Shown here: one piece after another, positions 1,922 to 54,893 of the stretch
Position numbering within the stretch: the first letter of the stretch is position 1
How the letters are laid out: each line of letters opens with the position of its first letter
NCBI RefSeq assembly: GCF_003867075.1
Contig: NZ_CP032544.1
Span: 858,001-922,000 of the forward strand
Length of the DNA stretch: 64,000 nt
Direction: 5' to 3'
DNA from: Tenacibaculum mesophilum
Lineage (GTDB): Bacteria; Bacteroidota; Bacteroidia; Flavobacteriales; Flavobacteriaceae
Position numbers and translations under genes: made by a program
Notes under the pieces: model-generated
Seen by the model: the letters and a program-made list of their open reading frames with translations, nothing else
The model's database searches: none
What the model was told of the DNA's origin: nothing

Positions 1922-1931
1922 GTTATGTGTA
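1922..1931. repeat. left boundary arm of cassette 1 (GTTATGTGTA)
   Basis: The 10-mer GTTATGTGTA lies immediately after the stop codon (TAA, complement of 1933-1935) of the lipoprotein gene. It is the exact reverse complement of TACACATAAC at 3180-3189, just upstream of the same gene's start. It is the first of four gene-specific boundary pairs in this region. Unlike the inner sites, no GTATAA-type second arm follows to the left, so this boundary looks terminal or degenerate. Confidence 0.65.
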
Positions 1932-1932
1932 G

Positions 1933-3153
1933 TTATTCTATTTCTAAATCAAAGTTTAATTTAATTAAAGAAACTTTATGAGATGGGTAATTAGTTGATA
2001 AAGTATAAATATTTTTATTAGTTAAATCTATAGATTGTCCCCATTGCTCGTCATTTTCATTTCTATGATAATATGACTTTTCAAGGTTACCGTTAAGATC
2101 ATATTTTGCTATTGCCATTCGTCTTGGTCCAAAACCTATTTGCTCATTAACAGCTCCGATTAAATATGTATTACCATTATTGTCAGTTTTAAAATCTTCA
2201 ATGAACTCAAATCTGTTATAGGGAAAATTGTTAATAGTAATGTTTTTTTTCCAAATTAACTGTCCTTCAAATGATACTTTACAGAAAATATGTCTACCAT
2301 TTTGTCTATCGGGCATTACAGATAAAATATAATTATTTGTTTTATTAATTATGAAATTATCATATCTAAATGTAAAGTCAAAAAAAGTGTGAAGCTTTAG
2401 TTCCCACAATATATTTCCTTGTAAATCAGATTTTATGATATATGGTTCTATTTCAGAGATACCTAATTCTTTTTTAAAACAAGATAAGATAATTGATTCG
2501 TTATCAAGACTGATAATGTCATTGAAATTTTTATACTCATCAGGAAAGTTTATTTCATTAATAAAATTGCTGTTTAAGTCAAATATCAAAATGCTTGATT
2601 TTCTATTTTCTTGATTTCCAACAATTAAATTTTTTAAGACAAAAAGATTGTTTGAAATAATCACAAAATTATTCACAAAAGTTTTATTATCTAGTTCTTT
2701 TTCCCAAATAAGATTGCCTTTATTTGAAGTTTTTATAAGCATAGATTTATTCTCATAGTCAGTTAGATAAGAATATGCTATGTAAAGATTATTGTTTTGT
2801 GGAATAGTAATTATATTTCTAGACTCAATGTTTCCGTTATGAAAACTAGAATTTTGATTAAACTGATCTCTAATAGGGGATTTCTTGTCTGTTATATTTA
2901 AGTTTTGGTCTAGATAATTAATAAATAGACCTTCAGAATTATTGTCTTTAAAAGAAATCCCAGAAACTAAAATATCATTATTAAAGATATTTAGATCTAA
3001 CCAACTTATATAATAAGGATTTTCAACAGGGTAATATTGTTTCTCTCCAATAATCAATTGAGTAGGTTCACCTTGTTCTTCACTCATATCGATATCATCA
3101 CTATTACAGCTAATGAAAGTTAAGAAAAATAAAAGTAAAACTGTTTTATTCAT
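1933..3153 (-). CDS. lipoprotein of unknown function (possible beta-propeller)
   Basis: A 406-residue protein with a lipoprotein signal ('LLFFLTFISC', Cys16) followed by an acidic stretch 'NSDDIDMSEEQGE', so it is exported and lipid-anchored. The rest has repeated strands of the type 'NIYTLSTN', 'NTYLIGAVNEQ', 'SIILSCFKKE' and 'YLDQNLNITDKK' with many Asn, Ile and Phe, which suggests a beta-propeller-like repeat fold; this is inference and no catalytic motif is visible. It is the first unit of the cassette-like array: flanked by the private inverted repeat 1922-1931/3180-3189, with its stop codon one base from the left arm and its ATG only 26 bases from the right arm, leaving little room for its own promoter. 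Confidence 0.7.
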   Translation of the reverse strand: MNKTVLLLFFLTFISCNSDDIDMSEEQGEPTQLIIGEKQYYPVENPYYISWLDLNIFNNDILVSGISFKDNNSEGLFINYLDQNLNITDKKSPIRDQFNQNSSFHNGNIESRNIITIPQNNNLYIAYSYLTDYENKSMLIKTSNKGNLIWEKELDNKTFVNNFVIISNNLFVLKNLIVGNQENRKSSILIFDLNSNFINEINFPDEYKNFNDIISLDNESIILSCFKKELGISEIEPYIIKSDLQGNILWELKLHTFFDFTFRYDNFIINKTNNYILSVMPDRQNGRHIFCKVSFEGQLIWKKNITINNFPYNRFEFIEDFKTDNNGNTYLIGAVNEQIGFGPRRMAIAKYDLNGNLEKSYYHRNENDEQWGQSIDLTNKNIYTLSTNYPSHKVSLIKLNFDLEIE

Positions 3154-3179
3154 TTTTTAATTAGTATTTTGTAGCTTAT

Positions 3180-3306
3180 TACACATAACGGGTTTGTATA
3201 AGATTGGTTGCGTGTTTTAAGCACTAAAGTTAGCAAATAAATCACAGATAGAAAGTCCGCGAGGACTTTCGTAAGTAGGCTAGAACTAGCAATTAATTTT
3301 ATACGT
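3180..3306. repeat. attC-like site A (interrupted by the IS110 element)
   Basis: An imperfect palindrome between the lipoprotein gene and hamB. It starts with TACACATAAC (3180-3189, mate of 1922-1931), a 6-base spacer beginning GG, and GTATAA (3196-3201). It ends with the complementary TTATAC (3299-3304). The other boundary arm, GTTGTGCAC (4524-4532), is now displaced 1.2 kb by the IS. The middle carries a hairpin of GAAAGTCC/GGACTTTC around GCGA and the block 'AAGCACTAAAGTTAGCAAA' shared with site B. The order AAC-spacer-L''...L'-GTT follows the plan of integron attC sites. Confidence 0.6.
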
Positions 3307-3344
3307 CTTAAGTTAGCAATTGTTTAAATTTAGTAATAAAAACC

Positions 3345-3495
3345 AGAAAGAAAAAAGCGTAGAGTAAGGTTATGATATACGTTGAAACCTAGATTTCGTC
3401 AACATTGATAATCCCTACGCTTTTACTACTTCGAATTCGTTCAGTTCTGTGAGACCAAGATCTCGATTTCAAGTTGTTTAATTGATAGTAGTTAT
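3345..3495 (+). ncRNA. candidate bridge RNA of the IS110 element
   Basis: Two stem-loops lie between the IS left end and the transposase, where IS110-group elements encode their bridge RNA. Stem-loop 1 has the stem AAAAGCGTAG (3353-3362)/CTACGCTTTT (3415-3424), an inner stem GGTTAT/ATAATCC, and a cap GTTGA/TCAAC. Its loop holds TATACGT (3376-3382), identical to the left flank at 3300-3306, and CAACA (3400-3404), complementary to TGTTG at the right flank. Stem-loop 2 has ACTACT (3425-3430)/AGTAGT (3487-3492) and holds TCAGTTCT (3441-3448), identical to the IS right end at 4514-4521. These are the expected target and donor guides. Exact RNA ends are unknown. Confidence 0.6.
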
Positions 3496-3518
3496 TTTCT
3501 TTCCAATCCTTTTTTCTT

Positions 3519-4484
3519 ATGAGTAAAAATAAACAATTTTTAGGAATCGATGTAAGTAAAGACGTTTTAGATGTATATGATTATCAAGGAAATTGGTATC
3601 AGTTTAAAAATGATGCATCAGGTTTTAAAGAGCTGTTGTTAATCACAACTGATTTAACACATTGTATAATGGAAGCTACAGGATATTATCATGTACGCTT
3701 AGCTTATTTTTTAACAGAAAAAGGAGTTTTGTTATCGGTAGAAAATCCGTTGAAGGTTAAGCGTTTTATTCAGATGAATTTATCAAAAGTAAAGACGGAT
3801 AAGAGTGATGCAAAGCAGTTATATAATTATGGCGTAAGTCAATCTCCTTCTATATGGAAAGGAGATAGTAAGGAACAACAAGAATGTTTACAAATAGTAC
3901 GTTTGTTGAGTGTTTATACGAAACAATCTACTCAATTAAAGAACAAGCTTCATGGCGAATCAGTATTAGGAACTCCCTCAAAATTGGTAGTTAATTCCTT
4001 AAAAAGGCAGCTGAAAAACATACAAAAAGAGATAGTTAAATTAGAAGATTTGTTGCTAGAGAACGTAAAAAAGAGTTATCAAGAAGAAATAACTTTATTA
4101 AAGTCTATTCCAGGAATAGGGGGTAAAACAGCATTAATGTTATTAGTTTTTACCGATGGATTTAAGCGTTTTACTTCAGCAAAAGAGTTGTGTAGTTACG
4201 CAGGTATTACACCCACTATTAGAGAATCAGGCAGTAGTATAAAAGGACGCCCTCGAATAAGTAAAATGGGGAATCCAAAGCTTAGAAATTTATTATTTAT
4301 GTGTAGCTTTAATGCTTGTAAATACAACAAAGCATGTAGAGAACTTTATGACCGAATAGTTGCTAAAGGTAAGAGTAAAAAACTAGCTTTAATAGCGGTG
4401 TGTAATAAGCTACTAAAACAAGCTTTTGCCATTGTAAAGAGTGGTTTGCCTTATGACGCAAATTATAAAAGTACGTTGGTTTAA
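3519..4484 (+). CDS. IS110-family DEDD transposase
   Basis: A 321-residue transposase of full family length. The N-terminal DEDD RuvC-like domain shows 'FLGIDVSKDVLDVY' (first Asp), 'CIMEATGYY' (Glu) and 'KVKTDKSDAKQL' (last two Asp). The C-terminal Transposase_20 domain shows 'LLKSIPGIGGKTALMLL', a helix-hairpin-helix-like start, and 'CSYAGITPTIRESGSSIKGRPRISKMGNPKLR', which contains the serine-bearing segment typical of the family. No frameshift or stop is seen, so the element could be active. The enzyme recombines a circular donor with its target at a short core guided by the element's own RNA (established for IS621). The ATG at 3519 is the natural start. Confidence 0.95.
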   Translation: MSKNKQFLGIDVSKDVLDVYDYQGNWYQFKNDASGFKELLLITTDLTHCIMEATGYYHVRLAYFLTEKGVLLSVENPLKVKRFIQMNLSKVKTDKSDAKQLYNYGVSQSPSIWKGDSKEQQECLQIVRLLSVYTKQSTQLKNKLHGESVLGTPSKLVVNSLKRQLKNIQKEIVKLEDLLLENVKKSYQEEITLLKSIPGIGGKTALMLLVFTDGFKRFTSAKELCSYAGITPTIRESGSSIKGRPRISKMGNPKLRNLLFMCSFNACKYNKACRELYDRIVAKGKSKKLALIAVCNKLLKQAFAIVKSGLPYDANYKSTLV

Positions 4485-4523
4485 AAAAGTATAAAATGTA
4501 CTTGTTTTTTACCTCAGTTCTTT

Positions 4524-4532
4524 GTTGTGCAC
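4524..4532. repeat. left boundary arm of the hamAB cassette (displaced half of site A)
   Basis: GTTGTGCAC is the exact reverse complement of GTGCACAAC at 7505-7513 on the far side of hamA. It lies 8 bases beyond the hamB stop codon (complement of 4541-4543). Before the IS insertion it closed attC-like site A. Confidence 0.65.
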
Positions 4533-4540
4533 TGGCTTTT

Positions 4541-6655
4541 TTAAATATATTCTTTCATATTCAACAATATTTCCTTTTCAAATTCAGTCAGTGCTAAATT
4601 CTCAATATTTAACTTGGATATAATCTCCAATAAATCATCTAAATTTTCAGTATTTTCTAGAGCACCTTGAATTTTTTTTGAAACTTGAATAGGAAGTCCA
4701 TACTCTTCTAGAATATTATAGTTGCTATTTGTAAAAAGACTTTCTAGTTGACTTGCAAAATAAGAATAATCAATTGGCTCTTTATTGTTGTTCTCAAAAA
4801 CCTCGTTTGCAATAGATTGTAAGTTTTTTAAATATATTGGGAAATGGTATTGAGGCCAATACTTAATAAAATTAATTTCTGCTTCGATAGCTTTATTAAT
4901 TTCGTCTTTGTTTGTTTTATTGGCAACTTCTAGCGCTAGTAAAGTCTTTATATCTTTATAACGCATAACTTGATAAATTTTGAAGGTTAATTGCTTATAA
5001 GATTTAATAAAAGCTCTAGAGTTTGAAGGTGCAATAAAATGTTCCCAAATAAGAAAGCATACTGCTTCAAGTTGTTTATAATCCGGATAATGCCATCTTA
5101 TATTTTGTTCATAATCTAAAATAACTTTAGCTAAATCATTTTGAAACGAAGGCTCTATATTAGAGTTACTTTTTAATGTCTCAAAAGATAATTCTGAATT
5201 CGATTTTATCTCATTTACAATTCTCTTAGACTTTTTATTTAAGTCTTCTTCATTTAATTGAAGTAATAATCTATCTGGTGTGTTTTCGCCTTGAGTAAAT
5301 AAAGGAAAATCAACTAAAGGTAATTCTTCGATAGGTGCATCGTGAAATAAATAAACATCACCTATGAAATGTTCAAACATTCTTCCTGAACGACCACAAA
5401 TATTATTATAAGTAAAAAAATCAAACTTATTTTGAGCTACCTTATTATCATAAATAATAACATTTTTAGCCTTTGTATTAACACCTTCTATAATTGTACT
5501 CGTGCATAAGAGAACGTTCAGCTCGTCATTATTAAATTTATCTAATATGATTTGAGAAAGAGAACGAGGTAATCTTCCGTGATGTAAACCAATGCCAAAT
5601 TCTAAATAATCAGCTAAATACCATTCTGAGTGAAATTCAGAACGTATCCAATTTGATAATTTCTCTACACTTTTATTCTTTTTAAAAATACCACTTAAAA
5701 ATAGAGCCTTAGCAAGCTGATTTATACTTCGTGGTGATTTACAATAAATTAAGGTCTGTCCATCTAATTCTGAACATAATTCAATTAATTTATCAATAGG
5801 ATTTCCATTATAATCAACTTTTATTCTACGGTTAATTACAGTCTTATAATCTGTTCTAATGTATTTATAAGTTACCTCATTTGGAAAATAGCTATTATTA
5901 ATATTTTCAATATTTGGGCCTAATAAATAGAACTGAGCTCCTTTTTTTAAAAGTTTATAAAAAGCTTGATTTAAAGCAATAGTCCTATTTAAGTCTGAAG
6001 TTGTAAAGTTTATTTTGTAAAATTCATCAATAACGAAAAAATCAATATCAATATCATCAGGAACAATCTCTAGAACTCTTTCTTGTGTTAATACAAAAAT
6101 GTTCTTTTCTGATATAGTCTGACTACTATGGGTTATTACTTTATAAGATTCTTTAAACTTAGATAGCCTTTTACGAGTTTCATCGATTAGCGCAATAGTT
6201 GGGACAACTATTACGATATTTTCATATTTTTCTATAGCAATTACTGCATCTATTACTAAGCTTTTACCAAAACTTGTTGGTGCACTTAGAATTACATTTT
6301 CTCCATTTAATAAAGAATAATAAATTTGTGCTTGTATTTTGTGAAAAACTATATTTTCTATTTTTTTTCCCTCAGGTCTATGAAATTCGTAAGCTATTAA
6401 ATCTTCTAGAGAAAGTTCTTCTGGGTTTAAGTATGGGAACAAACCTAGTTCACGAGCCAAATCATTTATAATTCCACTTGTAAATTTGAATTTATATTTG
6501 AAATTTAAGGCAAAAAGTATTAAATCGTTTGCTTGAATATTGCGCTTATTGTAATAGTAAGAAATAGATTTTGCTATGTCAAATTCACGATTACCAAAAC
6601 TCTCTTCTGTTTCAATAAGTTTAATTAGTTGAGATATTTCTATAAGTTCTGCCAT
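4541..6655 (-). CDS. hamB: Hachiman anti-phage system helicase HamB
   Basis: A 704-residue superfamily 2 helicase. Motifs in order: Walker A 'APTSFGKS' (125-132, Lys131), motif II 'VIDEFY' (Asp210-Glu211), 'GLHHGRLPRS' (about 356-365), motif V 'CTSTIIEGVN' (384-393) and motif VI 'NNICGRSGR' (417-425). The C-terminal 280 residues are helical with no recognised domain. It is encoded directly after a DUF1837/HamA gene, with a 16-base overlap, which is the defining two-gene arrangement of the Hachiman defence system. HamB is the ATP-dependent DNA-sensing helicase that holds the HamA nuclease in check (known for characterised systems). All motif residues look intact. The two genes together make one unit of the cassette array. 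Confidence 0.88.
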   Translation of the reverse strand: MAELIEISQLIKLIETEESFGNREFDIAKSISYYYNKRNIQANDLILFALNFKYKFKFTSGIINDLARELGLFPYLNPEELSLEDLIAYEFHRPEGKKIENIVFHKIQAQIYYSLLNGENVILSAPTSFGKSLVIDAVIAIEKYENIVIVVPTIALIDETRKRLSKFKESYKVITHSSQTISEKNIFVLTQERVLEIVPDDIDIDFFVIDEFYKINFTTSDLNRTIALNQAFYKLLKKGAQFYLLGPNIENINNSYFPNEVTYKYIRTDYKTVINRRIKVDYNGNPIDKLIELCSELDGQTLIYCKSPRSINQLAKALFLSGIFKKNKSVEKLSNWIRSEFHSEWYLADYLEFGIGLHHGRLPRSLSQIILDKFNNDELNVLLCTSTIIEGVNTKAKNVIIYDNKVAQNKFDFFTYNNICGRSGRMFEHFIGDVYLFHDAPIEELPLVDFPLFTQGENTPDRLLLQLNEEDLNKKSKRIVNEIKSNSELSFETLKSNSNIEPSFQNDLAKVILDYEQNIRWHYPDYKQLEAVCFLIWEHFIAPSNSRAFIKSYKQLTFKIYQVMRYKDIKTLLALEVANKTNKDEINKAIEAEINFIKYWPQYHFPIYLKNLQSIANEVFENNNKEPIDYSYFASQLESLFTNSNYNILEEYGLPIQVSKKIQGALENTENLDDLLEIISKLNIENLALTEFEKEILLNMKEYI

Positions 6656-7479
6656 ACGTTAAGTCTTTCGTCAAGTGATGCAGTTAATTCTATTTTTTCT
6701 TTCATTGGAAGCAGAAATAGATGAATTTTTAAATCTATATCTCCAATTTTATCTTTAAATGCTTCAAATATTTTTTCAAGTTCAGGTTTGATTTTGTCAA
6801 TATACTCGTCTGTAAATTTTGTGATATCCTTTGTTGTATTTGAATTATAAGTTAAAAGAACAGGAACACTTATTGAAGAAAATATTTCATCTAATGAGGT
6901 ATAAGGGTCGATTAGCTTTTTTAATTTATCCTTTAAAGGAAATTTTTCATCTATTTTATTTGTTATCGCGATAAATTCATTTCGTAGATAGTTATTTTCT
7001 AAATGGTCTTTAATCTCTGGAACAACATCTCGAATTGCATTGGAAATATTACTATAAAACTTAACTTCTCCAAGCCAAAGTTCTAACTGATTGTCAACCT
7101 CTAAAACGTGAACAGCATCAAAACCTTTTACAGTTTCATTGGGTCCATCTTTAAAGTGTATTTTGCTTATTGCAGGTGTTGTATTATAACATTCTTTAAT
7201 AATACTATGCAATATTAATTCTCCAAATTCACCTCGTCTAGAATGATATTTTTGATAGATTAATTTGGCAGCTTTTTTGAGCTTATTTGTAGCATCTAAA
7301 TAGTTTAAATTTTCATATTCAGAAAATTTTAGAGCAAAGTCTAATAAGTGGCGGTCAAATAAAAATTCAGAAAATTGCTTATGTCTCCATTCACCAGCTT
7401 CAAATCCACAACAGAGTCCTGTCATACCAATCGGAACTTCATTTGTATGGTAAAGTAGCTTTAAAAATTGTAGATTCAT
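6640..7479 (-). CDS. hamA: Hachiman system nuclease HamA (DUF1837)
   Basis: A 279-residue DUF1837 protein. The PD-(D/E)xK-like nuclease residues are visible: 'RRGEFGELILHSIIKE' (Glu84/Glu87), 'KGFDAVHVLE' (Asp121) and 'LWLGEVKFY' (Glu138, Lys140). In studied Hachiman systems HamA is the DNA-degrading effector released by HamB. The ATG at 7479 has only 25 bases between it and the cassette arm GTGCACAAC (7505-7513), so any promoter would have to lie within the attC-like palindrome or upstream cassettes. hamA precedes and overlaps hamB by 16 bases, implying coupled translation. Active-site assignment is by motif; the family assignment rests on the motif set plus the helicase partner. Confidence 0.87.
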   Translation of the reverse strand: MNLQFLKLLYHTNEVPIGMTGLCCGFEAGEWRHKQFSEFLFDRHLLDFALKFSEYENLNYLDATNKLKKAAKLIYQKYHSRRGEFGELILHSIIKECYNTTPAISKIHFKDGPNETVKGFDAVHVLEVDNQLELWLGEVKFYSNISNAIRDVVPEIKDHLENNYLRNEFIAITNKIDEKFPLKDKLKKLIDPYTSLDEIFSSISVPVLLTYNSNTTKDITKFTDEYIDKIKPELEKIFEAFKDKIGDIDLKIHLFLLPMKEKIELTASLDERLNVWQNL

Positions 7480-7504
7480 TTCTTAGTTGGTTGTTTTTTA
7501 GCTT

Positions 7505-7641
7505 GTGCACAACGGTCTCGTATAACCGTTAGTTACGGGATTAAAGTTAATGATTTTCGGTTTAGCACTGACGTTAGCAATTCCTAGTGGATTCGGACGT
7601 AGTCGAATCCGCCGTAATTGCGGTTATACATTGTTACCTGC
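7505..7641. repeat. attC-like site B (intact)
   Basis: An intact site between hamA and the next lipoprotein gene. Outer arms: GTGCACAAC (7505-7513, mate of 4524-4532) and GTTACCTGC (7633-7641, mate of 8334-8342). Inner arms: GTATAACCG (7520-7528) and CGGTTATAC (7621-7629), a perfect 9-bp complement. Spacers are 6 bases on the left and 3 on the right, an asymmetry also seen in site C. The centre contains 'TTTAGCACTGACGTTAGCA' (shared with sites A and C) and a palindrome GGATTCG...CGAATCC around a GACGTAGT core. The stop codon of the lipoprotein gene lies inside the right arm. Confidence 0.65.
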
Positions 7642-8317
7642 TGGCTTTTATTTTTTCAAATTCAGTTTCGGTTAGGATTTCCGCTAATTCTAATTCAATC
7701 AACTCGTGCTGAATAGGAATTTTCCTTTTATATTTTATCATTCCAATGTCTTTTACGTAAAACGAATCTTGATAAAATCTTTGCTCAACGTCGTGGTCAA
7801 GTGCAAAAATTATATATTCGTCTCTAAATTTCAATGCTTCATATTCCTTTCCATTTACAGTAATATTTTCAATTCCAGATTCCACTCTTTTCTTTTTAAA
7901 ATCGAAGCGACCATATTTATTGACATATTTAACAGAATATGTATATTCTTTATCTCCACCCCATTTGTAAACGTCTTTATCAACTACCTTTGCTTTAATT
8001 TCTTTTCTTTCTCCTTTGTCATTCATTTCAAAGTCAGAGTAAGCAGTTAATTCAGCACCACTTTCTGTTATAATCTCGTCAAACGTATTGTAGACATTAA
8101 AGTCAGAATCGTAAGAAACTGTTTTTAATTCATTTGTTTTCGGATTTGATGTTACTTTCCAATACTCAATTTTCGTCGAGTCGTTTTTATCCACGTATTT
8201 ATAAATTTTTGTTTCTGTTTGATTATAAAATGGATAATAGAAGTCTTTTAAATTTTCTTGGGACTTACAACTTAATGTTGCAAGTAATATCAAAATTAGG
8301 TTTATGTACTTTTTCAT
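7634..8317 (-). CDS. lipoprotein of unknown function (cassette gene)
   Basis: A 227-residue protein with a lipoprotein signal 'MKKYINLILILLATLSC' (Cys17), so it is probably anchored in the outer or inner membrane facing the periplasm. The body is rich in charged beta-strand-like stretches ('DEIITESGAELTAYSDFEMNDKGERKEIKAKVVDKDVYKWGGDKEYTYSVKY') without a family motif I recognise. Its TAA stop is part of the boundary arm GCAGGTAAC on the minus strand, and its ATG is 16 bases from the mate arm at 8334-8342, so the coding region fills the cassette almost completely. Such tight packing with no room for a promoter is typical of integron-type cassette genes. Confidence 0.7.
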   Translation of the reverse strand: MKKYINLILILLATLSCKSQENLKDFYYPFYNQTETKIYKYVDKNDSTKIEYWKVTSNPKTNELKTVSYDSDFNVYNTFDEIITESGAELTAYSDFEMNDKGERKEIKAKVVDKDVYKWGGDKEYTYSVKYVNKYGRFDFKKKRVESGIENITVNGKEYEALKFRDEYIIFALDHDVEQRFYQDSFYVKDIGMIKYKRKIPIQHELIELELAEILTETEFEKIKASR

Positions 8318-8333
8318 TCGTTTTGTTCAGCTT

Positions 8334-8533
8334 GCAGGTAACGGATTTGTGTATGAAACGTAGCGTGTAATAAGACACTAACTTTCGGGTTAACACAGAG
8401 CCGAATTTTTATATTTTGTTTTTAATTTTCTCTTTTTAAAAGCCAAATTAAAAATTTGGCGAACTTTCTAAATATACACAAACCTTTCGGTTTAGCACTT
8501 ATTAGCTATGTTTTATACACCGTGTTGTACTGC
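8334..8533. repeat. attC-like site C (intact, long)
   Basis: Outer arms are GCAGGTAAC (8334-8342, mate of 7633-7641) and GTTGTACTGC (8524-8533, mate of 9168-9177). Inner arms are GTGTAT (8349-8354) and ATACAC (8515-8520), with spacers of 6 and 3 bases as in site B. The centre is about 160 bases and holds 'TTTCGGTTTAGCACTTATTAGCTATG' in part (8485-8510), matching site B, plus an AT-rich inverted repeat AGCCAAATT/AATTTGGC near 8440-8460. No gene fits here. Confidence 0.62.
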
Positions 8534-8534
8534 G

Positions 8535-9146
8535 TTATTTTTTGTCAAATTCATTTATCAGATTGTGTAATTTATCTTTTTCAGGAACTCTTTCAATCCA
8601 TTTTCTGGCTGAAATTCCGTGATTATTTATTTTATCCAATTCAGCTCCACGATTTAAGAGTTCTTTGATAATTTCAAATCTCAATTGGTTGACTTCTTTT
8701 TGTTCTTCTCGCCAAGTCAGTCCGTATTCACGAATTGCAGTAAATATGGGACTATTTCCGTGTTCATCATCAACAATATTTACATCTGGATTACCTTTTC
8801 TTAGTAATAGTAAAGATATTTTTGAGAGATTATGATAAGCGAGAGCGATATGTAAAGCATTAAATCCATTATCATTTTTCCAATTCAAGTCAGCTTTTTG
8901 GTCAATTAGATAATCAATTAATTCCAATTGCTCATTGGAGTCTTGAAATTCAGACGAGCAGTTCACAGCATTAATGAGAATTGAGTTCGAGTTAGATGAA
9001 TCCAAGTATTCGTTTATTCCAATTTTTTCTTTTTCAATTATTTCAATCACCTTTTGTTTGTTCGGTTCATAAAGTGCTCTAAAAAGTTCAATTCCGAAAT
9101 CCTTTTCAGATTTATTTGAAGAAAACAAACTTTTGAATAAACTCAT
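8535..9146 (-). CDS. ankyrin-repeat protein (cassette gene)
   Basis: A 203-residue cytosolic protein when started at the ATG at 9146 ('MSLFKSLFSSNKSEKDFGIELFRAL'); the frame extends 10 codons upstream to a TTG, but that segment runs into the cassette arm and is not needed. Ankyrin-type repeats are visible: 'DNGFNALHIALAYHNLSKISLLLLRKGNPDVNIVDDE' (middle) and 'HGNSPIFTAIREYG...IIKELLNRGAELDKINNHGISARKWI' (C-terminal), with a degenerate one before them ('NSILINAVNCSSE...LIDYLIDQKADLNWK'). Ankyrin repeats bind other proteins; the partner is unknown. The TAA stop abuts the arm GTTGTACTGC, and the mate arm lies 21 bases before the ATG. Confidence 0.75.
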   Translation of the reverse strand: MSLFKSLFSSNKSEKDFGIELFRALYEPNKQKVIEIIEKEKIGINEYLDSSNSNSILINAVNCSSEFQDSNEQLELIDYLIDQKADLNWKNDNGFNALHIALAYHNLSKISLLLLRKGNPDVNIVDDEHGNSPIFTAIREYGLTWREEQKEVNQLRFEIIKELLNRGAELDKINNHGISARKWIERVPEKDKLHNLINEFDKK

Positions 9147-9167
9147 AGATTCTTGATTGGTTTTAAT

Positions 9168-9209
9168 GCAGTACAACTAGTTTATATGCGTAATAAAATT
9201 ACTTATATA
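9168..9209. repeat. right end of the cassette array (half-site)
   Basis: GCAGTACAAC (9168-9177) is the exact mate of 8524-8533. It is followed by a short stem TATATgcGTAAT (9183-9194)/ATTACttATATA (9198-9209) instead of a full site, and no GTT arm follows. This is either a truncated last site or an attI-like entry point. Between here and 9394 I see nothing else except AT-rich DNA. Confidence 0.45.
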
Positions 9210-9394
9210 TTCCTTTTACGGTAGGATATGCGGAACTTTTAGCAATTTTATTAACACCTTCAAATATAAAGAAATAAGATAAAAAAGTGTAATTTTTTTA
9301 TCGGGATTACAAACAAAGCCTAATTAGGTTGTCTTCCTTCTTCAAGAATAAAAGCAATTTTAAACAAGTTGACACACTTTATTGAATACTCCCC

Positions 9395-9646
9395 GGCATG
9401 CTCCGTTAACACCACGGCACGGGTCGCTGATATCACGGCGTGCTCCGTTGACACTACGGCATGGGTCGCTAATATCACGGCATGCTCCGTTAACACCACG
9501 GCATGGGTCGCTAATATCACGGCATGCTCCGAAGACACCACGGCACGGGTCGCTAATATCACGGCGTGCTTCGAAGACACTACGGCATGGGTCGCTAATA
9601 TCACGGCATGCTCCGAAGACACTACGGCATGAGTCGTTATTATCTC
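9395..9646. repeat. minisatellite: six 42-bp units, each two related 21-mers
   Basis: Six units of exactly 42 bp, each composed of a 21-mer of the type GGCATGCTCCGTTAACACCAC (variable TTA/AAG in the middle) in its first half and one of the type GGCATGGGTCGCTAATATCAC in its second half. Units differ by a few substitutions and the last is most diverged. The array is markedly GC-richer than its surroundings. Because 21 is divisible by three, several frames stay open and would encode heptad repeats ('HAVILAT'), but no start context or homology supports a gene. Confidence 0.9.
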
Positions 9647-9710
9647 GTTACGATTAGTTAATACTTTTCTCTACTATGTTATTATTTTTTTTCTTAGGAT
9701 ATAATAAGCT

Positions 9711-9908: not shown

Positions 9909-12341
9909 ATGTCTAAAAAACCAGTTGTAACTTTAGGTAGTAATCACCAATGTCCAATGTGTAGTGGGTCTACACCTCATGTTGGAGGACCTGTTACCCA
10001 AGGAGAGCAAAACATTTTAATTAACGGTAAACCTGTGGCAACTATTGGTAGCATGTGTACATGTAATGTAGGTATGGATACTATAGTTACTGGAAACCCA
10101 AGCATTCTTGCTAATGGTAAACCTATAGCATGTATAGGTGATATGACTGCACATGGGGGAACTATTACTTCTGGTGAGAATAATGTTCTTGTTAGTAGTA
10201 GCTCCCCACAATCAACTGTAGTGATGCCTATTGATCAAATTCCATTTCCTGATATTAGTTTTAAAGACAGAATTGGGGCTGCTTTTACTGGTAACACAAA
10301 AATGCTTAAACAAGCTGAAGCCAATCAACAAAAAATAAAAGAACTTGCTGAGCAACAAGAGCAAGAAAAAAAAGAAAAAGAACTCCCAAAATTACAAGGT
10401 GAAATTATTTTTATAAATGGTTATTTAAGCGACTTTAAAACAAACAGCGAATCACACTGGAATGCTATAATGGATTTAAACCCTGATAAACCAGGTTGGT
10501 TCACCTCAAGAGGTGAAAACACTAATGAATATAAACGTACTGATCATGATGATTATTATACTGCAGAACAACGTGAAAAAGACCTCCACAAAAGTAAATT
10601 TAGAAAAATTGTTGAAGAAAAGTTTAGAAATCCTAATACGTTAATTTTTAAAACTCCCGAAAGTAAATATTATGGTTACTGGAATGATATTGCTAATGAC
10701 TACAAAGCTACAGAAACCTACGCCAAATACTTTAATGCAGAAGGTAGAGTACACTACATTAATGGTTCACATGGGCTAGGAAGTAGCGGAGCACATAGAG
10801 TTGATCATGGTATTGCTTTAGGCTATGAATGGGCTCGTTATAATTGGAAGCTCATCAAAAAAGAAAAGGTTGATGCTAAAAAAGAAGAATCTCCACAAAT
10901 AGAAAGCTATTCTCCACATTATAAACCCATAACTATTGTTGGTCATAGTCAAGGTGCTTGTATGGCAGCAGGTGTAAAACTGGGTATTATTAAGTATGCT
11001 AACGAAATGGGATGGAAAAAAGTAGCCATAAATACCATTTTTTTAGGAGTGCATCAACCTAAAGGATTGTATGGAAAAAACTACGATAGTCTTATTAAGA
11101 AAAAAACACAAGAGTACATGGTTTACAAAAATGCTGTACTTAGAGGAAAAAATGAAGATAGCGGACATAAATTTTTAAGTGCTATTTCTGAATTGTATAG
11201 TCCCAAATATAAAAAGGTTTTTAACAAACGAGGTTTATTTGAACATGTAAAAGCTATTTGTTACGATTGGAACGCTTATAAGAGTAGAGTTGTACAATTT
11301 ACTTTTCCGAACGACAGAGGTGATTTAGTAACTATAGATGGAGATATACCAGAAATAAAAAGTGCCTGTCACCCTAAAAGAGATAAAACGTTATTTAGTG
11401 CTGAATATTTTCATAAACAAGATAGTATTCCTTCGTATTACCAAACACAACAAAATAAAAAAATCATTGATTTGTCTATGTATGGAGCTGAAAGTGGCTA
11501 TGTAGTTATTCCTCCTTATGTAGCTGAAGAACGTTACGATTACGATGCTTTAGAAAAGCTAGACTCCCCCACTATAAATCAACAAATACACGGTGTACAT
11601 TGGAAGGGTTATAGTAGAGTAGTCATACGTTGGGGTGTAGCTATGAATGCCTTCAAACTAGCTAAATCAAGCTACCAGAACTATACAAAACATAAATTTA
11701 CCGCAAGTGCTGTTGGTGATCTTTTAATTGGGACTTATACGTTTATAGAAAACAATCATAAAAAAATAGCGTTGTACAAAAAACTAATTGCTAATTATAA
11801 AAACAAAACGATTAAAACTAACCTTACTAATTTGTTTGAAGGACATTTTAAAACTCCTATTAAGATACCAAAACACCTCACTCGTAAATGGAGATATTCT
11901 AGCGACGAAAAATATGCTATCATTCTATACAATTTAGCCTATGTAACTTATCAAAACATGCTACTACAATACGCTCCCTTACAAAGTGCTGATTTATATG
12001 CTCACTTTGCTCCTGTAGGACATATTTTACACACAAAATTATTACAAGACAATAGTGGGAGTTTTAATGACCAGTACGGTAATATTTCTATATTTGAACG
12101 TATAAAGAATGCTGGAAAAGATAAATTCTATAGAATGAAATATAAAGTAGAACTTGGAAAAGAGTTAACAGATGAAGAAAAACGAAAACAAGAAAAAAAG
12201 AAAGTTGAAGAACTAAAAGATAAACTTATTGATTCTTCTATTGCTGACACAGAATATATAAATAATGTTATCAAAGCATACGTACACAAAAAGAAAAGTT
12301 ATGAATCTAAGTTATATGATGAAAGTAAAAATAAAAATTAG
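9909..12341 (+). CDS. PAAR-domain lipase, predicted type VI secretion effector
   Basis: An 810-residue protein. Residues 1-97 form a PAAR-type spike-tip domain with repeated 'INGKPVATIG', 'ANGKPIACIGD' and 'TSGENNVLV' segments and several Cys/His. After a charged linker (about 125-160) comes an alpha/beta-hydrolase domain starting 'GEIIFINGYLSD', with the nucleophile elbow 'IVGHSQGACM' (Ser347). The rest to 810 is alpha/beta with a Lys/Glu-rich tail and no recognised domain. PAAR plus GxSxG is the plan of T6SS phospholipase effectors (Tle-like), which act on target-cell membranes. No other T6SS gene is in the window, so it is an orphan effector. The following lipoprotein overlaps its 3' end and is the candidate immunity protein. 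Confidence 0.82.
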   Translation: MSKKPVVTLGSNHQCPMCSGSTPHVGGPVTQGEQNILINGKPVATIGSMCTCNVGMDTIVTGNPSILANGKPIACIGDMTAHGGTITSGENNVLVSSSSPQSTVVMPIDQIPFPDISFKDRIGAAFTGNTKMLKQAEANQQKIKELAEQQEQEKKEKELPKLQGEIIFINGYLSDFKTNSESHWNAIMDLNPDKPGWFTSRGENTNEYKRTDHDDYYTAEQREKDLHKSKFRKIVEEKFRNPNTLIFKTPESKYYGYWNDIANDYKATETYAKYFNAEGRVHYINGSHGLGSSGAHRVDHGIALGYEWARYNWKLIKKEKVDAKKEESPQIESYSPHYKPITIVGHSQGACMAAGVKLGIIKYANEMGWKKVAINTIFLGVHQPKGLYGKNYDSLIKKKTQEYMVYKNAVLRGKNEDSGHKFLSAISELYSPKYKKVFNKRGLFEHVKAICYDWNAYKSRVVQFTFPNDRGDLVTIDGDIPEIKSACHPKRDKTLFSAEYFHKQDSIPSYYQTQQNKKIIDLSMYGAESGYVVIPPYVAEERYDYDALEKLDSPTINQQIHGVHWKGYSRVVIRWGVAMNAFKLAKSSYQNYTKHKFTASAVGDLLIGTYTFIENNHKKIALYKKLIANYKNKTIKTNLTNLFEGHFKTPIKIPKHLTRKWRYSSDEKYAIILYNLAYVTYQNMLLQYAPLQSADLYAHFAPVGHILHTKLLQDNSGSFNDQYGNISIFERIKNAGKDKFYRMKYKVELGKELTDEEKRKQEKKKVEELKDKLIDSSIADTEYINNVIKAYVHKKKSYESKLYDESKNKN

Positions 12342-13347
12342 TGCTATTTGTTTGCTTTTGTTAACTAGTTCTAGTTGTAATTATTTAAAAAAGAAAAAAG
12401 CTATACAAAAAATGGAAAAAGAATATACAGAATATCAAGATTTACATAAACATCAAGGAACAGAAAATTATGATGTAATTACGTTGTTTAAAGAACACTC
12501 TATAATTGAAGAGAAATTAGCTGAACAAAAACAACTATTTTTATCTGTTATAGGTAAAAAAAAAGAAAAGTTTAAAAGAATAAAAGTAGATTTTTTCGGA
12601 AACCTATTAGGCACAGGTTTATCTTCTGAAACACTAATAGATGGTACTATGTCTGGGTATAAAACATATGGAAACTGGCTCATTAATAATGACACTACTT
12701 TAAATAAATATATAGACCCTTTTTTAAATAAAGAAATTAAAGATCCTTTAGATTATAATTTCAAAAATGTAGAAAAAAGAGAATGGTTACAAAAGTTCAA
12801 AGAACTATATTTAGATGCCTCATATGTACATATTGACTCATATGATTATTATTTTAAAATCAAAGAAAAGTGGTATTTAATTCAAACTTATAAAAAAGCA
12901 AAAGAGTTAAATATTGATATAAAAAAACAGTATCCTTCCAAAATAGCTCCTGAAGAAGTACGTATGGTAAAAATTCCTGAGGTCTTTGATAACTTACTAG
13001 AAAACAAAACCCTACAATTAGCTGAATATGTAGAAATGGACAAACAAAAAAGTAGTGGTTTAAACCCTATTAGTTTTTCCTCTGGTTATTACATGTTCGA
13101 ATTACATTTACCACAAGGGGATATCTTAAAATTTAGACGTTATGGTGCCATGGGGTTTAATGCTGATATGAATATATATCAAATACCTAAAGAATTAGGT
13201 GGTAGCGACGAAGTTTTTTTTATAGAACAATTACCAAGACAAACTTATCCTAATAAATCCTTTGCTGGTTTTTATGCCATACGACCTAAAAATTACATAG
13301 AATTACCTGAGTATAAATCATATTCCGAAAAAGAGAAAAAAAATTAA
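12316..13347 (+). CDS. lipoprotein, candidate immunity protein of the PAAR effector
   Basis: About 343 residues when started at the ATG at 12316 (12319 is equally possible), giving the signal 'KVKIKISAICLLLLTSSSC' with a clear lipobox. Upstream in-frame ATGs (12265, 12301) would put a hydrophilic extension before it. The start lies inside the effector gene (26-base overlap), which argues for translational coupling. The mature part has many Lys/Glu/Tyr, ends with 'GFYAIRPKNYIELPEY', and has no motif I know. Immunity proteins against periplasmic lipase effectors are often lipoproteins, and position fits; the role is inferred. Confidence 0.6.
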   Translation: MMKVKIKISAICLLLLTSSSCNYLKKKKAIQKMEKEYTEYQDLHKHQGTENYDVITLFKEHSIIEEKLAEQKQLFLSVIGKKKEKFKRIKVDFFGNLLGTGLSSETLIDGTMSGYKTYGNWLINNDTTLNKYIDPFLNKEIKDPLDYNFKNVEKREWLQKFKELYLDASYVHIDSYDYYFKIKEKWYLIQTYKKAKELNIDIKKQYPSKIAPEEVRMVKIPEVFDNLLENKTLQLAEYVEMDKQKSSGLNPISFSSGYYMFELHLPQGDILKFRRYGAMGFNADMNIYQIPKELGGSDEVFFIEQLPRQTYPNKSFAGFYAIRPKNYIELPEYKSYSEKEKKN

Positions 13348-13348
13348 C

Positions 13349-13594
13349 ATGAATAAAAAAAGTGATAATTTTGGTTGTACACATGTGACATATGGTATTG
13401 TTTTCTCTGATATCATTGCTATAATTATATGGCATGAAAAATATATCTCTGGTAAATGTAGTTTTTGTACAGGCTTAGGTGAGTTTATTATTTTGTTATT
13501 GTATTTAGGAGCAGCTTCAACTATCGGAGCTTTTCTATCACTACCTTTTCATTACATCTATCACTACATTAAAAAGAAAAAACAAAATAATTAA
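13349..13594 (+). CDS. small membrane protein next to effector and immunity genes
   Basis: An 81-residue protein starting one base after the previous stop, so part of the same operon. It has two predicted membrane segments (about residues 15-32 'VTYGIVFSDIIAIIIW' and 45-70 'FIILLLYLGAASTIGAFLSL') and a basic C-terminal tail 'KKKKQNN'. The loop between them contains 'GKCSFCTGLGE' with a CxxC. Family unknown. It may assist immunity or be a second immunity protein, but sequence alone does not show that. Confidence 0.55.
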   Translation: MNKKSDNFGCTHVTYGIVFSDIIAIIIWHEKYISGKCSFCTGLGEFIILLLYLGAASTIGAFLSLPFHYIYHYIKKKKQNN

Positions 13595-28848: not shown

Positions 28849-30471
28849 ATGACCAAAATTATTTCTTTTTCTTCGGATGTTTCTACTATTGAATTACCTA
28901 AAAAGTTTGATTATCCTTATAATTATTCACCTCATACTCTAGCACAAATAGCTGCTAAAGAATTACAAGAATATTTAACAAATCAAACTGATTTTTCGCA
29001 CAACTTTGGAATTAAAAACCCTGAGGATACTAACTCACTAGGGAAAATGTTTGGAGTCTTAGTTGTGCAAGATCAAAATGGAACCTTAGGCTATTTAGCT
29101 GCATTCTCTGGTAAACTTGCTGAAAGCACACAACACAAACATTTTGTTCCGCCTGTTTTTGATGTTTTAGATAAAAATGAATTCTACCTTACGACAGAAG
29201 AACGACTTAATGAGTTAACCCATAAAATAGAAAGTCTAGAAAGTTCCGCTGGTTTTATTGAAACAAAAAAAGCATATCAAAAAACGCAACAACTGCACGA
29301 AAAGCTTTTAGCTGAAGAACAATCAAAAATTAAACAACGAAGAAAACTTAGAAAAAAGCTAGGGCAACAAAACAATCAACTAAACATAAATGAAGAGTTT
29401 TACTTACGTGAATACGAAGTGTATTTAAACGATAAAATAGCAGCATCAAAAAAAGCGTACCAAGTAAAGCAACATCAAATTGAGGAGTTAAAACAACAAC
29501 GTGCAAACCTTTCAGCTTGGGCACAACAAGAAATATTTAAAAAATATGCTTTTCTTAACTATCGAAGAGAAACTAAAAACTTATTAGATGTTTTTACAGA
29601 CTCCACTCAAAACATTCCTGCTGGTGCCGGTGATTGTTGTGCACCAAAACTATTACAATACGCATATAAACATCAATTAAAACCTATTTGTATGGCTGAA
29701 TTTTGGTGGGGAAAACCTTTAAAAACTTCCATAAGAAAACATCAATATTTTTATCCTGCGTGCACAGGGAAATGCAAACCTATTCTAACGCATATGTTAC
29801 AAGGGATTACAGTAGAAGAAAATCCGTTAGTTGCTCAATTAAAGAAAGAAAAAGAAATTACAATTATTTATGAAGATTCAGATTTGTTAGTCATCAACAA
29901 ACCACATGAGTTATTATCGGTAGCTGGAAAAGAAATAAAAGACTCTGTGTTTAGTCGTATTCAAAAATTATATCCAAAAGCAACAGGTCCGTTAGTTGTG
30001 CATCGTTTAGACATGTCAACCTCAGGAATATTATTAATAGCAAAAAATCAAGAAACTTATAAAGCTTTACAAGCACAGTTCATTAATAAAACTGTGCAAA
30101 AACGCTATATAGCTTTATTAGATGGTGTTTTAAAAGACTTTAAAGGAAAAATCGATTTACCACTTAGAGTAGACTTAAACGACCGCCCTAAACAGCTTGT
30201 GTGTTACCAACACGGAAAAGAAGCATTGACTACTTGGGAAAAAGTTGAAGTTCTAAACAACAAAACAAAAGTATACTTTTATCCTATAACTGGACGCACA
30301 CATCAATTACGTGTGCATGCTGCACATAATTTGGGACTAAACACTCCTATTGTAGGTGATGATTTATACGGAAAGAAAGCAGACAGGTTGTATTTACATG
30401 CTGAAAAAATCACATTTGTACATCCTACTTCAAAAAAACAAGTAAGCTTTACTACTCCTGCACCTTTTTAA
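28849..30471 (+). CDS. RluA-family pseudouridine synthase with long N-terminal extension
   Basis: A 540-residue protein when started at ATG 28849 ('MTKIISFSSDVSTIELPKKFDYPYNYSPHTLAQIAAKEL'); 9 further codons upstream lie in the terminator. Residues 1-330 are an extension that includes a coiled coil (about 110-230, many Lys/Gln/Glu) and a Cys-rich part 'GAGDCCAPKLLQYAYKH...PACTGKCKPILTHML'. The synthase domain follows: 'VINKPHELLSVAGK' and the catalytic 'VVHRLDMSTSGILLIAK' with the conserved Asp, then 'ITGRTHQLRVHAAH'. It modifies uridine in rRNA or tRNA. This long version is common in Bacteroidota; the exact site is unknown. Confidence 0.9.
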   Translation: MTKIISFSSDVSTIELPKKFDYPYNYSPHTLAQIAAKELQEYLTNQTDFSHNFGIKNPEDTNSLGKMFGVLVVQDQNGTLGYLAAFSGKLAESTQHKHFVPPVFDVLDKNEFYLTTEERLNELTHKIESLESSAGFIETKKAYQKTQQLHEKLLAEEQSKIKQRRKLRKKLGQQNNQLNINEEFYLREYEVYLNDKIAASKKAYQVKQHQIEELKQQRANLSAWAQQEIFKKYAFLNYRRETKNLLDVFTDSTQNIPAGAGDCCAPKLLQYAYKHQLKPICMAEFWWGKPLKTSIRKHQYFYPACTGKCKPILTHMLQGITVEENPLVAQLKKEKEITIIYEDSDLLVINKPHELLSVAGKEIKDSVFSRIQKLYPKATGPLVVHRLDMSTSGILLIAKNQETYKALQAQFINKTVQKRYIALLDGVLKDFKGKIDLPLRVDLNDRPKQLVCYQHGKEALTTWEKVEVLNNKTKVYFYPITGRTHQLRVHAAHNLGLNTPIVGDDLYGKKADRLYLHAEKITFVHPTSKKQVSFTTPAPF

Positions 30472-37935: not shown

Positions 37936-38850
37936 ATGAATGTAATTCAAAACTTTAAGCAAGATATAAAATCAAGTTTATTTTTTAGTTCTTCAGGAAG
38001 TGAATTGAAAAGTCAATTATTATTATTACAGAACAGACTAGACAGTTATGTGAGTTCTTATTTTGATGACAAAACTAACCCAATAAGCAAGGAAAAGTTA
38101 AGAGAGCTTAAAAAGCGTGTTAAAGAAAAAATAGATACTTTAAATACCCAACTTGAAAAAGCAAGAGGAGCTGCAAAAAAAGATTTAATAGCTAGAATTA
38201 AAGAGTTGAAAGAGGCTTTAAAAGAAATTAAAGTTATTCAAAATTCGGAAACCGAATACAATTTTAAGATTAGTAATAAACCAAAGTTTACTTATGAAAA
38301 CACTTCAAATAAAGGAACTGTGTTTTATAATGGAACATTAGGTAGTTTGTTAAATGAATTAAAACACGCTTTTCAATTTGAAACAGGTAAAATAGACTTT
38401 ATTAAAGTAAATGGAGTTCCTGAAAATCTTCCTGGTGTTTTATACGATTTAGGCGATGAATTAGAGACTTACAAAAGACAATATGCATATGATGGTATAT
38501 TAAAACTTCGAATTGTTATGACTGAGACAGAAATGTTAAACCAAATTAAAACAGGTAAAATAAAAAAAGGATTAGGTTTAGGTGGGCTAGAAATAAAACA
38601 AATGAAAAAAATTACAGCGAGTGTAATTGTTAAAATTGAAGATACTCTTGGTAGTGGTTCTTTATACAATACAATATCAAAAAAGAGTTTAGATATTCAC
38701 TCAACGCTTGGAGAGATTAAAAAGGGTAACAAACATCGAAGTAACTTTATTCAAGGGTTAGGTATAGATAAACAAGATAAAAGAAAACCATATATAGATT
38801 TTATAAAAGTATTTATTGAAACTAATCCATTTATTTATGTTAAGTACTAA
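37936..38850 (+). CDS. uncharacterised protein with zincin-like motif lacking the first His
   Basis: A 304-residue protein without a signal peptide. Residues 48-105 form a Lys/Glu-rich coiled coil. The C-terminal half has 'GTLGSLLNELKHAFQFETGKIDF' (N140-E141-L-K-H144) and then 'LYDLGDELETYKRQYAYDG'. This resembles the toxin-like metallopeptidase pattern (HExxH, followed by a 'YD..DE.EAY+RQYAFDG' segment) seen at the ends of polymorphic toxins, but the first zinc His is Asn here. It could be an inactive or diverged toxin domain. The next gene overlaps its end. The family call is tentative. Confidence 0.6.
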   Translation: MNVIQNFKQDIKSSLFFSSSGSELKSQLLLLQNRLDSYVSSYFDDKTNPISKEKLRELKKRVKEKIDTLNTQLEKARGAAKKDLIARIKELKEALKEIKVIQNSETEYNFKISNKPKFTYENTSNKGTVFYNGTLGSLLNELKHAFQFETGKIDFIKVNGVPENLPGVLYDLGDELETYKRQYAYDGILKLRIVMTETEMLNQIKTGKIKKGLGLGGLEIKQMKKITASVIVKIEDTLGSGSLYNTISKKSLDIHSTLGEIKKGNKHRSNFIQGLGIDKQDKRKPYIDFIKVFIETNPFIYVKY

Positions 38851-39442
38851 AACTTTTATCAGCATATTTTTTCTTTCTTATTTTTGTTTTATACCGCAAC
38901 CTTTTCCTGAAGGCACTACTTATATTACACCTTCATTTAAATCAATTCCTAAACATTCAGTTGATATTCAAAAAAACAATATCATCATAACCATATTTTC
39001 AAAAGATATGTTCTATCGTGGAAATGAAATAAAATTTAAAAGTGAAATAAAAGGAGATACAATTTACATTCTCAATAAAATTAAGAATAGTAAGAAAAAC
39101 GATGGAATTAAAATTAATAATGAAAAACTTATATCTTTTTTTACAAACACTCGTTTTTTTATAAAGTCAAAAAACACTTTAATTCATACTGAAAGTAATA
39201 GACCTTATTTTAATAAAAAGTTAGTAGATAGCACCTTAAGTAACCAAACAGTATATAGCATAAATGGTAAAATACTAATGTCTACTAAAGATTCTTCTGT
39301 ATTAAATCCAATATTAAATGAAAAGAAGTTTAAAATAAAAACCTTGGAGGTAATAAAGCCTGAAAACGCTATAAAAACTTACGGACTATTTGGCTTTAAA
39401 GGTATTATAAAAATAAAGGGAAAGTTTAAAAAATGTAAATAA
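38837..39442 (+). CDS. small exported protein of unknown function
   Basis: A 201-residue protein when started at ATG 38837, which gives a signal peptide 'MLSTKTFISIFFLSYFCFIPQ'. The start overlaps the preceding gene by 14 bases, suggesting coupled translation. The mature protein is Lys/Asn/Ile-rich with 'SIPKHSVDIQKNNIIITIFSKDMFYRG' and ends 'GLFGFKGIIKIKGKFKKCK'. I recognise no family. Its place next to a toxin-like gene makes an immunity or accessory role possible, but nothing in the sequence proves it. Confidence 0.5.
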   Translation: MLSTKTFISIFFLSYFCFIPQPFPEGTTYITPSFKSIPKHSVDIQKNNIIITIFSKDMFYRGNEIKFKSEIKGDTIYILNKIKNSKKNDGIKINNEKLISFFTNTRFFIKSKNTLIHTESNRPYFNKKLVDSTLSNQTVYSINGKILMSTKDSSVLNPILNEKKFKIKTLEVIKPENAIKTYGLFGFKGIIKIKGKFKKCK

Positions 39443-54779: not shown

Positions 54780-54893
54780 GTTTTTACTTCTTTTGTAACT
54801 AACAATGTTTAATATTTGTTATAAATCAAGCTTGTTTTAATGCGTCCCCCGAAAAGCATTTAATAGAGTAGGGATAACTCAAATTAATTAATC

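Follow-up and report, generated by a model that had tools for sequence, protein, structure and literature searches.

The window considered here, by which we mean the whole stretch of 64,000 nucleotides from Tenacibaculum mesophilum, carries close to its left end an array of four gene units that all read in the same direction (Table 1). Each unit is bounded by an inverted pair of short sequences, or arms, of its own; between the units lie palindromic sites resembling the attC sites of integrons, and the array begins with an element resembling an integron attI. A sequence-only reading of this DNA had described four exact private inverted pairs with imperfect palindromes between the units, and had taken the whole for an integrase-less cluster of attC-like sites in a Bacteroidota chromosome. 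All eight arms are found where that reading placed them, the palindromes are present as sites A, B and C, and an integrase is indeed absent; what had been overlooked is the array's own attI-like element. Considered together with its relatives, the window very probably holds a cassette array, itself without an integrase, that belongs to an integron-type system of the Flavobacteriaceae, the recombinase of which appears to belong to a lineage other than IntI.

Table 1. Features of the cassette array, in positions of the window
Feature	Position	Strand	Details
Whole array	1922..9310 region		genes on - strand; order from right to left: attI-like element, cassettes 1, 2, 3, 4
Cassette 4 (oldest end)	1922..3189	-	private arms GTTATGTGTA 1922-1931 and TACACATAAC 3180-3189; open reading frame 1933-3153, 406 aa
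Site A (attC-like, given on non-coding strand)	3187..4526	+	3187-3306, resumes 4523; interrupted by IS110-type element
IS110-type insertion sequence	3307..4522 (ends +/- 2 bases)	+	DEDD transposase 3519-4484
Cassette 3	4524..7513	-	private arms GTTGTGCAC 4524-4532 and GTGCACAAC 7505-7513; HamB 4541-6655, HamA 6640-7479
Site B (attC-like)	7511..7635	+	AACGG...TTATACATTGTT
Cassette 2	7633..8342	-	private arms GTTACCTGC 7633-7641 and GCAGGTAAC 8334-8342; open reading frame 7634-8317, 227 aa
Site C (attC-like, long type)	8340..8526	+
Cassette 1 (adjoins attI)	8524..9177	-	private arms GTTGTACTGC 8524-8533 and GCAGTACAAC 9168-9177; ankyrin-repeat protein, open reading frame 8535-9176 from TTG, or start at ATG 9146
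attI-like core ATATAAACTAGTTG	9174..9187	-	cassette start at G^TT
attI-like element	9167..9310	-	promoter-like box TATATTTG 9261-9268; inverted repeat GATAAAAAAATTACACTTTTTTATC 9278-9302

Cassette 3 encodes a Hachiman anti-phage system, with HamA (DUF1837) and the HamB helicase adjacent to one another (PDLC00166, E 1e-105; PDLC00180, E 2e-232; Pfam HamA also matches). Searches of Pfam and PADLOC gave no match for the proteins of cassettes 2 and 4. No L box is seen past the end arm of cassette 4, such that the attC of this cassette looks truncated.

Seven of the eight arm words are unique on the + strand of the window, the exception being GTTGTGCAC, which recurs at 29636. On base composition only, the chance of six extra matching bases at fixed positions is 5.7e-4, and for the four units jointly ~9e-15 if they are independent. 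The pairing was measured more broadly in 215 units from four genomes, by comparing the 7 bases past GTT at one end of the unit with the 7 past AAC at the other. Within a unit a mean of 5.93 of these 7 bases pair, and 180 of the 215 units reach at least 6 (73/81 in G106, 86/92 in G151, 15/33 in G139 and 6/9 in G125), with perfect pairing ending at 9 or 10 bp in 173. The corresponding means are 2.47 for shuffled partners (1000 shuffles, highest mean 2.76), 2.59 for the two arms of one site and 2.66 for the arm of the next unit (197 cases). This count supersedes that of a less complete site finder, which resolved 121 of 238 hits and gave an own-arm mean of 4.36. In the 189 units with at least five matches, the longest open reading frame lies on the predicted strand in 124 and on the opposite strand in 1; the coding units start, at the median, 27 bases past GTT and stop 12 bases ahead of AAC. 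Private complementary ends, a single gene direction and little room for a promoter are the marks of integron cassettes, and all three are found.

The sites themselves have a common core. BLAST of site B gave matches in 17 of 39 genomes (the window's own, 23 of the genus and 15 of the order), one of the 17, from the order, over 22 bases only. The longer alignments mostly span the sequence from AACGG to GTT and exclude the arms; in other words, the core is common and the arms are not. Searches of plasmid and phage collections gave no match to site B, and an Rfam search returned nothing at the sites. From 32 sites collected, 27 were aligned, leaving out three cut by an insertion sequence and two of the long type. 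Over these 27, 18 base pairs are formed in 99.0% of cells, a value which falls to at most 53.3% when one side of the alignment is slid by 1 to 3 columns, and 65 cells are changed on both sides of a pair against 23.2 in shuffles (0/500 as high). One of the base pairs is G.U in 27/27 sites, and the strand opposite to the genes is therefore favoured. Indeed, when four sites were folded as DNA on both strands, the non-coding strand was more stable in each, as it was in 245 of 258 sites, or in 253 when the site was closed with its cassette's own arm; this closure adds 4.7 kcal/mol on average. When closed, site B forms an R stem of 9 bp, then a spacer of 6 versus 3 bases, and then a long, bulged L stem. 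The arrangement resembles that of an attC, which comprises an R box, an unpaired central spacer, an L box and extrahelical bases (PMC2727003). R and L boxes, an unequal spacer and folding of the non-coding strand are all present here; folding had been proposed as a check by the sequence-only reading, and it is seen together with covariation. The canonical R' box has the consensus GTTRRRY. In 100 units, position 4 is G or A in 97, while position 5 is G in 37, T in 35, C in 28 and A in 0, so GTTRRRY does not describe these sites; their R' box is GTTR followed by a base other than A, which bears out the divergence from the classical box that had been claimed.

A covariance model of the site gives 23 matches in the window's genome at E up to 1, 22 of them at E<0.01, and matches in 108 of 120 Flavobacteriaceae genomes (one per genus, at most 27 candidates being scored per genome); the 12 site-less genomes range in size from 1.3 to 2.6 Mb. 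Sites stretch over ~78 kb in each of G106 and G151 (Urechidicola croceus, also of the Flavobacteriaceae). A site profile gave 238 hits in 400 kb and 0 on the same sequence reversed, and in the scan of site-rich genomes 4/254 matches arise from the palindromic nature of a site that lies on the opposite strand. The 120 cassette proteins analysed from G106 and G151 include three ParE matches, two ParD matches and single PADLOC matches such as PifA, SoFic and PD-T4-1. One unit occurs in 38 copies in the large array of G151 (L085-L089), 37 of them without an open reading frame of 50 aa, alternating with coding cassettes; it may carry a promoter or an RNA.

The attI-like element of the window is one of at least six in the same genome (the others being L293, L294, L295, L297 and L301). 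The five others are 82-98% identical to it over the matched part, and past each of the six there are attC-like sites in the right direction. The box TATATTTG, which we take to resemble Bacteroidota promoters, is also found before attI in many relatives. The pattern GCATATAAACTAGTTG, allowing one mismatch, occurs in 17 other genomes of 58 as well, several of these places looking like chance. No array integrase is present in the window's genome, where the best match is XerD at 147 bits, and a tblastn search for integrase remnants in the window gave a best E of 0.13. The genome also contains a broken integrase of another type (L024, at 3251002), broken into a front part of 263 aa and, apart from it, a frame of 126 aa that matches PF00589. 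Upstream of the window's attI-like element, at 9369-9657, lies a ~42-base tandem repeat (CATGCCGTGATATTAGCGACC...), and similar repeats precede the attI copies in L293, L295 and L301 and one copy in G161. G188, a member of the genus without a strong integrase match, has at least three copies (L135, L147, L152) of an orphan attI-like element of a second type (GTTACATAAAGTTGCGCATATAAACTAGTTG).

The gene that the window lacks is found in relatives. Ten site-rich genomes were searched for tyrosine recombinases. In three of them (G106, G151 and G125) such a gene immediately precedes the array and is transcribed in the direction of the cassettes, and three more (G052, G078 and G066) have one in the vicinity of sites; the recombinases of G123 and G129 look different, and this search found no array-type integrase in G109. 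The array integrase of relatives is ~376-410 aa in length and its gene lies just before attI, the core of which (ATATAA-N3-GTTR) is typically 14 to 33 bases past the integrase stop; the first cassette starts there. The relatives thus have attI beside an integrase gene and the window has attI without one. At 47 of 55 loci with attI and a site within 3.5 kb, the 7 bases after the attI GTT are identical in 6 or 7 positions to the arm of that first site, where shuffling gives a mean of 2.50 and at most 3.18; the window scores 0 in this count, the profile having missed site C, and direct reading of its arm gives an exact match. An unbroken chain of integrase, attI and four cassettes is seen in G017, which belongs to the window's genus; of the attI elements in that genome one is beside the integrase and two are elsewhere. 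Across the genus an integrase match of at least 200 bits is present in 45/58 genomes, some being partial or with stops.

The first alternative to be weighed is that the array is an ordinary cluster of attC sites lacking an integron integrase (CALIN), its sites being canonical attC and the canonical IntI that formerly acted on them being lost or located elsewhere. A CALIN is defined as at least two attC less than 4 kb apart with no IntI (PMC9668308), and the attC-like sites B and C, which were recognised by their own covariance model, are 0.7 kb apart with no IntI found. In favour of this alternative, private arms, a single gene direction, hairpin sites and attI are integron features, and canonical IntI exists in the phylum, above the cut-off in 105 of 395 genomes. 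However, only 1 of these 105 genomes is marked as of the window's class and 0 as of its order, family or genus (with at most 5 candidates scored per genome), the R' box departs from GTTRRRY as described, and the recombinase adjoining the arrays has no IntI insert. On TIGR02249, the integron integrase model, six array-type proteins score 186-213 bits, in two stretches, where the cut-off is 265 and XerD and XerC of the window's genome reach 116 and 109 bits; the alignment of the array integrase to IntI4 (PDB 2a3v) breaks at the same place. The distance from the Lys motif to LRHS is 59-61 residues in the 36 proteins with both motifs as against 102 in 8 IntI. In a tree built from 44 proteins, the array integrases (12) and the IntI (8) each form a clade at 100/100, class b (10 proteins) joins the array integrases at 88/91 with IntI beside both, and these three groups are set apart from XerC and XerD at 100/99; a clade of array integrases and IntI that excludes class b is not clearly rejected by the approximately unbiased test (p 0.058). 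Judged from these comparisons of protein sequence, the array integrase is without the IntI-specific insert, forms a clade of its own and is not an IntI, and an ordinary CALIN is very unlikely.

The array integrase also has an extra N-terminal domain, for which Foldseek gave no match under E 0.001, the best being YciH, an eIF1-like protein; the N-terminal domains of HARP, UvsW and XPB are counted among the nearest known counterparts. The family model NF040815 ('site-specific tyrosine recombinase/integron integrase') comes close to the recombinase part, in that the six array-type proteins score 205-230 bits around its cut-off of 220 and NCBI gives that name to the Urechidicola croceus protein, but its 263 positions cover the recombinase part only and it says nothing on cassettes, attI or the N-terminal domain. 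Among the matches listed in plasmid records, two are flavobacterial-type relatives and the others are mostly IntI1 at 32% identity. Plasmid NZ_CP094530.1 of Chryseobacterium oryzae carries, at 38327-39346, a relative of the array integrase with 38% identity over 91%.

A second alternative is that the units are moved by the housekeeping XerC and XerD or by another recombinase, with the class-a integrase gene a mere passenger. In its favour, the window's genome has no full-length PF00589 proteins other than XerC and XerD, and yet contains many sites and attI-like elements. Against it, the class-a gene in most cases immediately precedes attI with its first cassette. Among integrase genes with a readable frame, an attI core follows within 450 bases at 27/29 genus loci, 25/29 family loci and 7/28 phylum loci (most of the last being of other types), over a background of 21/1760 stretches. 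From 80 named loci, which yielded 69 integrase frames, class a has the core in 31/37 and downstream sites on the expected strand in 22/37, with 0 on the other strand. Furthermore, an array integrase match of at least 380 bits is present in 57 of the 120 family genomes, all 57 of which have at least one site, and the 12 site-less genomes have no such match. The passenger explanation is likewise very unlikely, slightly more so than an ordinary CALIN.

Comparison of one locus in sister species shows that its cassette content differs. In the window's genome the array is bordered by a class-III aminotransferase gene (642-1820) on one side and by a PAAR-domain gene (9909-12341) on the other, and the comparison was made between the aminotransferase (94-95% identical) and an aspartokinase (93-96%). 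In this interval G189 has one 308-aa open reading frame and no attI or site; G017 has an attI element, one recognised site and frames of 189, 186 and 239 aa; G161 has two attI elements, no recognised site and frames of 187 and 167 aa; and G022 has sites, frames of 84, 163 and 150 aa and the PAAR genes. None of the window's cassette proteins is present at the locus in these four genomes, nor were its cassettes found outside its own genome in the other fetched loci, which are parts of genomes. On the aminotransferase side, the flanks of the window's genome (G000), G017 and G161 agree as far as GTT, which reads ATT in G161, and diverge from there, as do the attI elements past their GTT; G189 and G022 do not share this flank. 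Eleven other fetched loci, where the aspartokinase is not near, are uninformative on exchange. That the sites are a palindromic repeat family, similar to miniature inverted-repeat transposable elements or repetitive extragenic palindromes, which separates genes by chance without cassette exchange, is the least probable explanation of all. In its favour, the site cores are repetitive and share sequence families, and AACGGnnnnGTATAA, taken as a short motif by itself, is no more frequent in the window than chance predicts (21 occurrences with up to two mismatches, 20.85 expected), unlike the full site. It predicts, however, neither the GTT boundary nor the pairing of unit ends, both of which are seen, and is already contradicted by the arm statistics.

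Beyond the array, the window has at 9909-13594 the gene of an 810-aa PAAR-domain protein and, after it, two small genes; each of the three has a relative (93-97%) at the same locus in G022, but not in G017, G161 or G189. At 54839-54874 there is an Rfam match to the DUF805b RNA (39.4 bits, above the gathering score).

The insertion sequence within site A has three more copies (>99%) in the fetched parts of the window's genome, and G151 has three relatives of it of nearly full length (68%). In 7/7 IS110-type copies with both junctions read, partial pieces elsewhere being left out, the left end is a few bases past the L box (TTATA) and the right end is followed by the TGTT of an attC-like site. 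IS1111-family elements, for example ISKpn4, and ISPst6 are known to target attC (PMC11187229). The likeness is that here, too, an element whose transposase is of the IS110 family occupies a constant position within the sites; the difference is in the target, which here is the flavobacterial site, between L box and TGTT.

The reading of the window as an integrase-less array of a non-IntI, integron-type system is carried by the structure of the sites, the private arms, the linkage of recombinase and attI in relatives and the differing content at one locus, each of them seen directly in the sequences. On this reading, which for recombination at G^TT draws on the comparison of loci, circular cassettes of one or two genes would enter at the G^TT of the attI core, such that the newest cassette adjoins attI, and would be exchanged at the G^TT of the attC-like sites. 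Since each cassette opens with 9-10 bases complementary to its own end arm, a free circle would regain a fully paired hairpin, while neighbouring arms within an array would be mismatched. The recombinase would act on the folded, single non-coding strand, thereby fixing the direction of the cassettes, and its extra N-terminal domain may help to read the branched single-strand substrate. The promoter-like box of attI may be active in front of the first cassette, and several attI elements may be used in trans. The window's genome would either have lost its integrase or receive one at times from outside, keeping its attI-like elements with short arrays.

Several observations weigh against this reading. 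Shuffled sites likewise favour the non-coding strand, in 192/258, and composition accordingly accounts for part of the strand preference. The arms are weaker in G139, where 15/33 units reach six matches and where the integrase is away from the array, and 8/55 attI-arm pairs have fewer than six matches, one of them, that of the window, only through the missed site C. No open reading frame of 50 aa is present in 64 of the 189 units, 37 of the 64 being one repeated unit. Class b in named genomes has the attI core in 9/32 and sites in 2/32, the attI-like element L304 of G017 has no recognised site within 12 kb, and 51 of the 108 site-bearing family genomes, including the one-contig G109, have no integrase match of at least 380 bits.

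The further checks which the sequence-only reading had proposed have borne fruit: other such sites exist, 22 in the window's genome at E<0.01 and many in relatives, as do a linked tyrosine recombinase in relatives and a differing cassette content in sister species. Its integron interpretation holds for the proposed mode of working and not for membership, as the recombinase of the relatives is not a canonical IntI. In other words, the flavobacterial system would work like an integron, yet lacks two defining features of the canonical class, IntI and GTTRRRY. It has in common with chromosomal IntI integrons and CALINs that short cassettes are arrayed in one direction behind an attI, that the hairpin sites have private arms and fold as the non-coding strand and that, in G106 and G151, the arrays reach ~78 kb. 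It differs from chromosomal IntI integrons in that the integrase has no IntI insert and has the extra N-terminal domain, its gene is transcribed towards the cassettes, the site boxes are AACGGnnnnGTATAA / TTATACnnnGTT with arms of 9-10 bp, and there are at least six attI-like elements in one genome, that of the window. With somewhat less assurance, we think it reasonably probable that this is a second deep integron lineage, present in most sampled Flavobacteriaceae: a sister group of IntI which would handle folded single-strand sites without the IntI insert, perhaps by an N-terminal domain that recognises branched DNA, with several promoter-bearing attI pads per genome and one integrase serving them in trans.

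A literature search, with preprints and most subscription journals outside its scope, found no description of the flavobacterial system. Reviews count Bacteroidota among the integron-bearing phyla (PMC8618304, PMC9668308), the relevant passages of an attC survey of 11 taxa name none of this group (PMC8352920), and for Tenacibaculum larymnensis, also a flavobacterium, IntegronFinder is reported to have found no integrons (PMC10013915). Surveys of integrons look for IntI and canonical attC, such that they would overlook a system in which both the integrase and the sites are of a different kind. If the second lineage is real, integron-type recombination can do without the IntI insert, and one can test which part of the integrase recognises the folded attC strand, the insert or something that other domains can replace. 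Overlooked along with such a system would be a large reservoir of cassettes in a bacterial family that is common, phage-defence and toxin-antitoxin genes among them.

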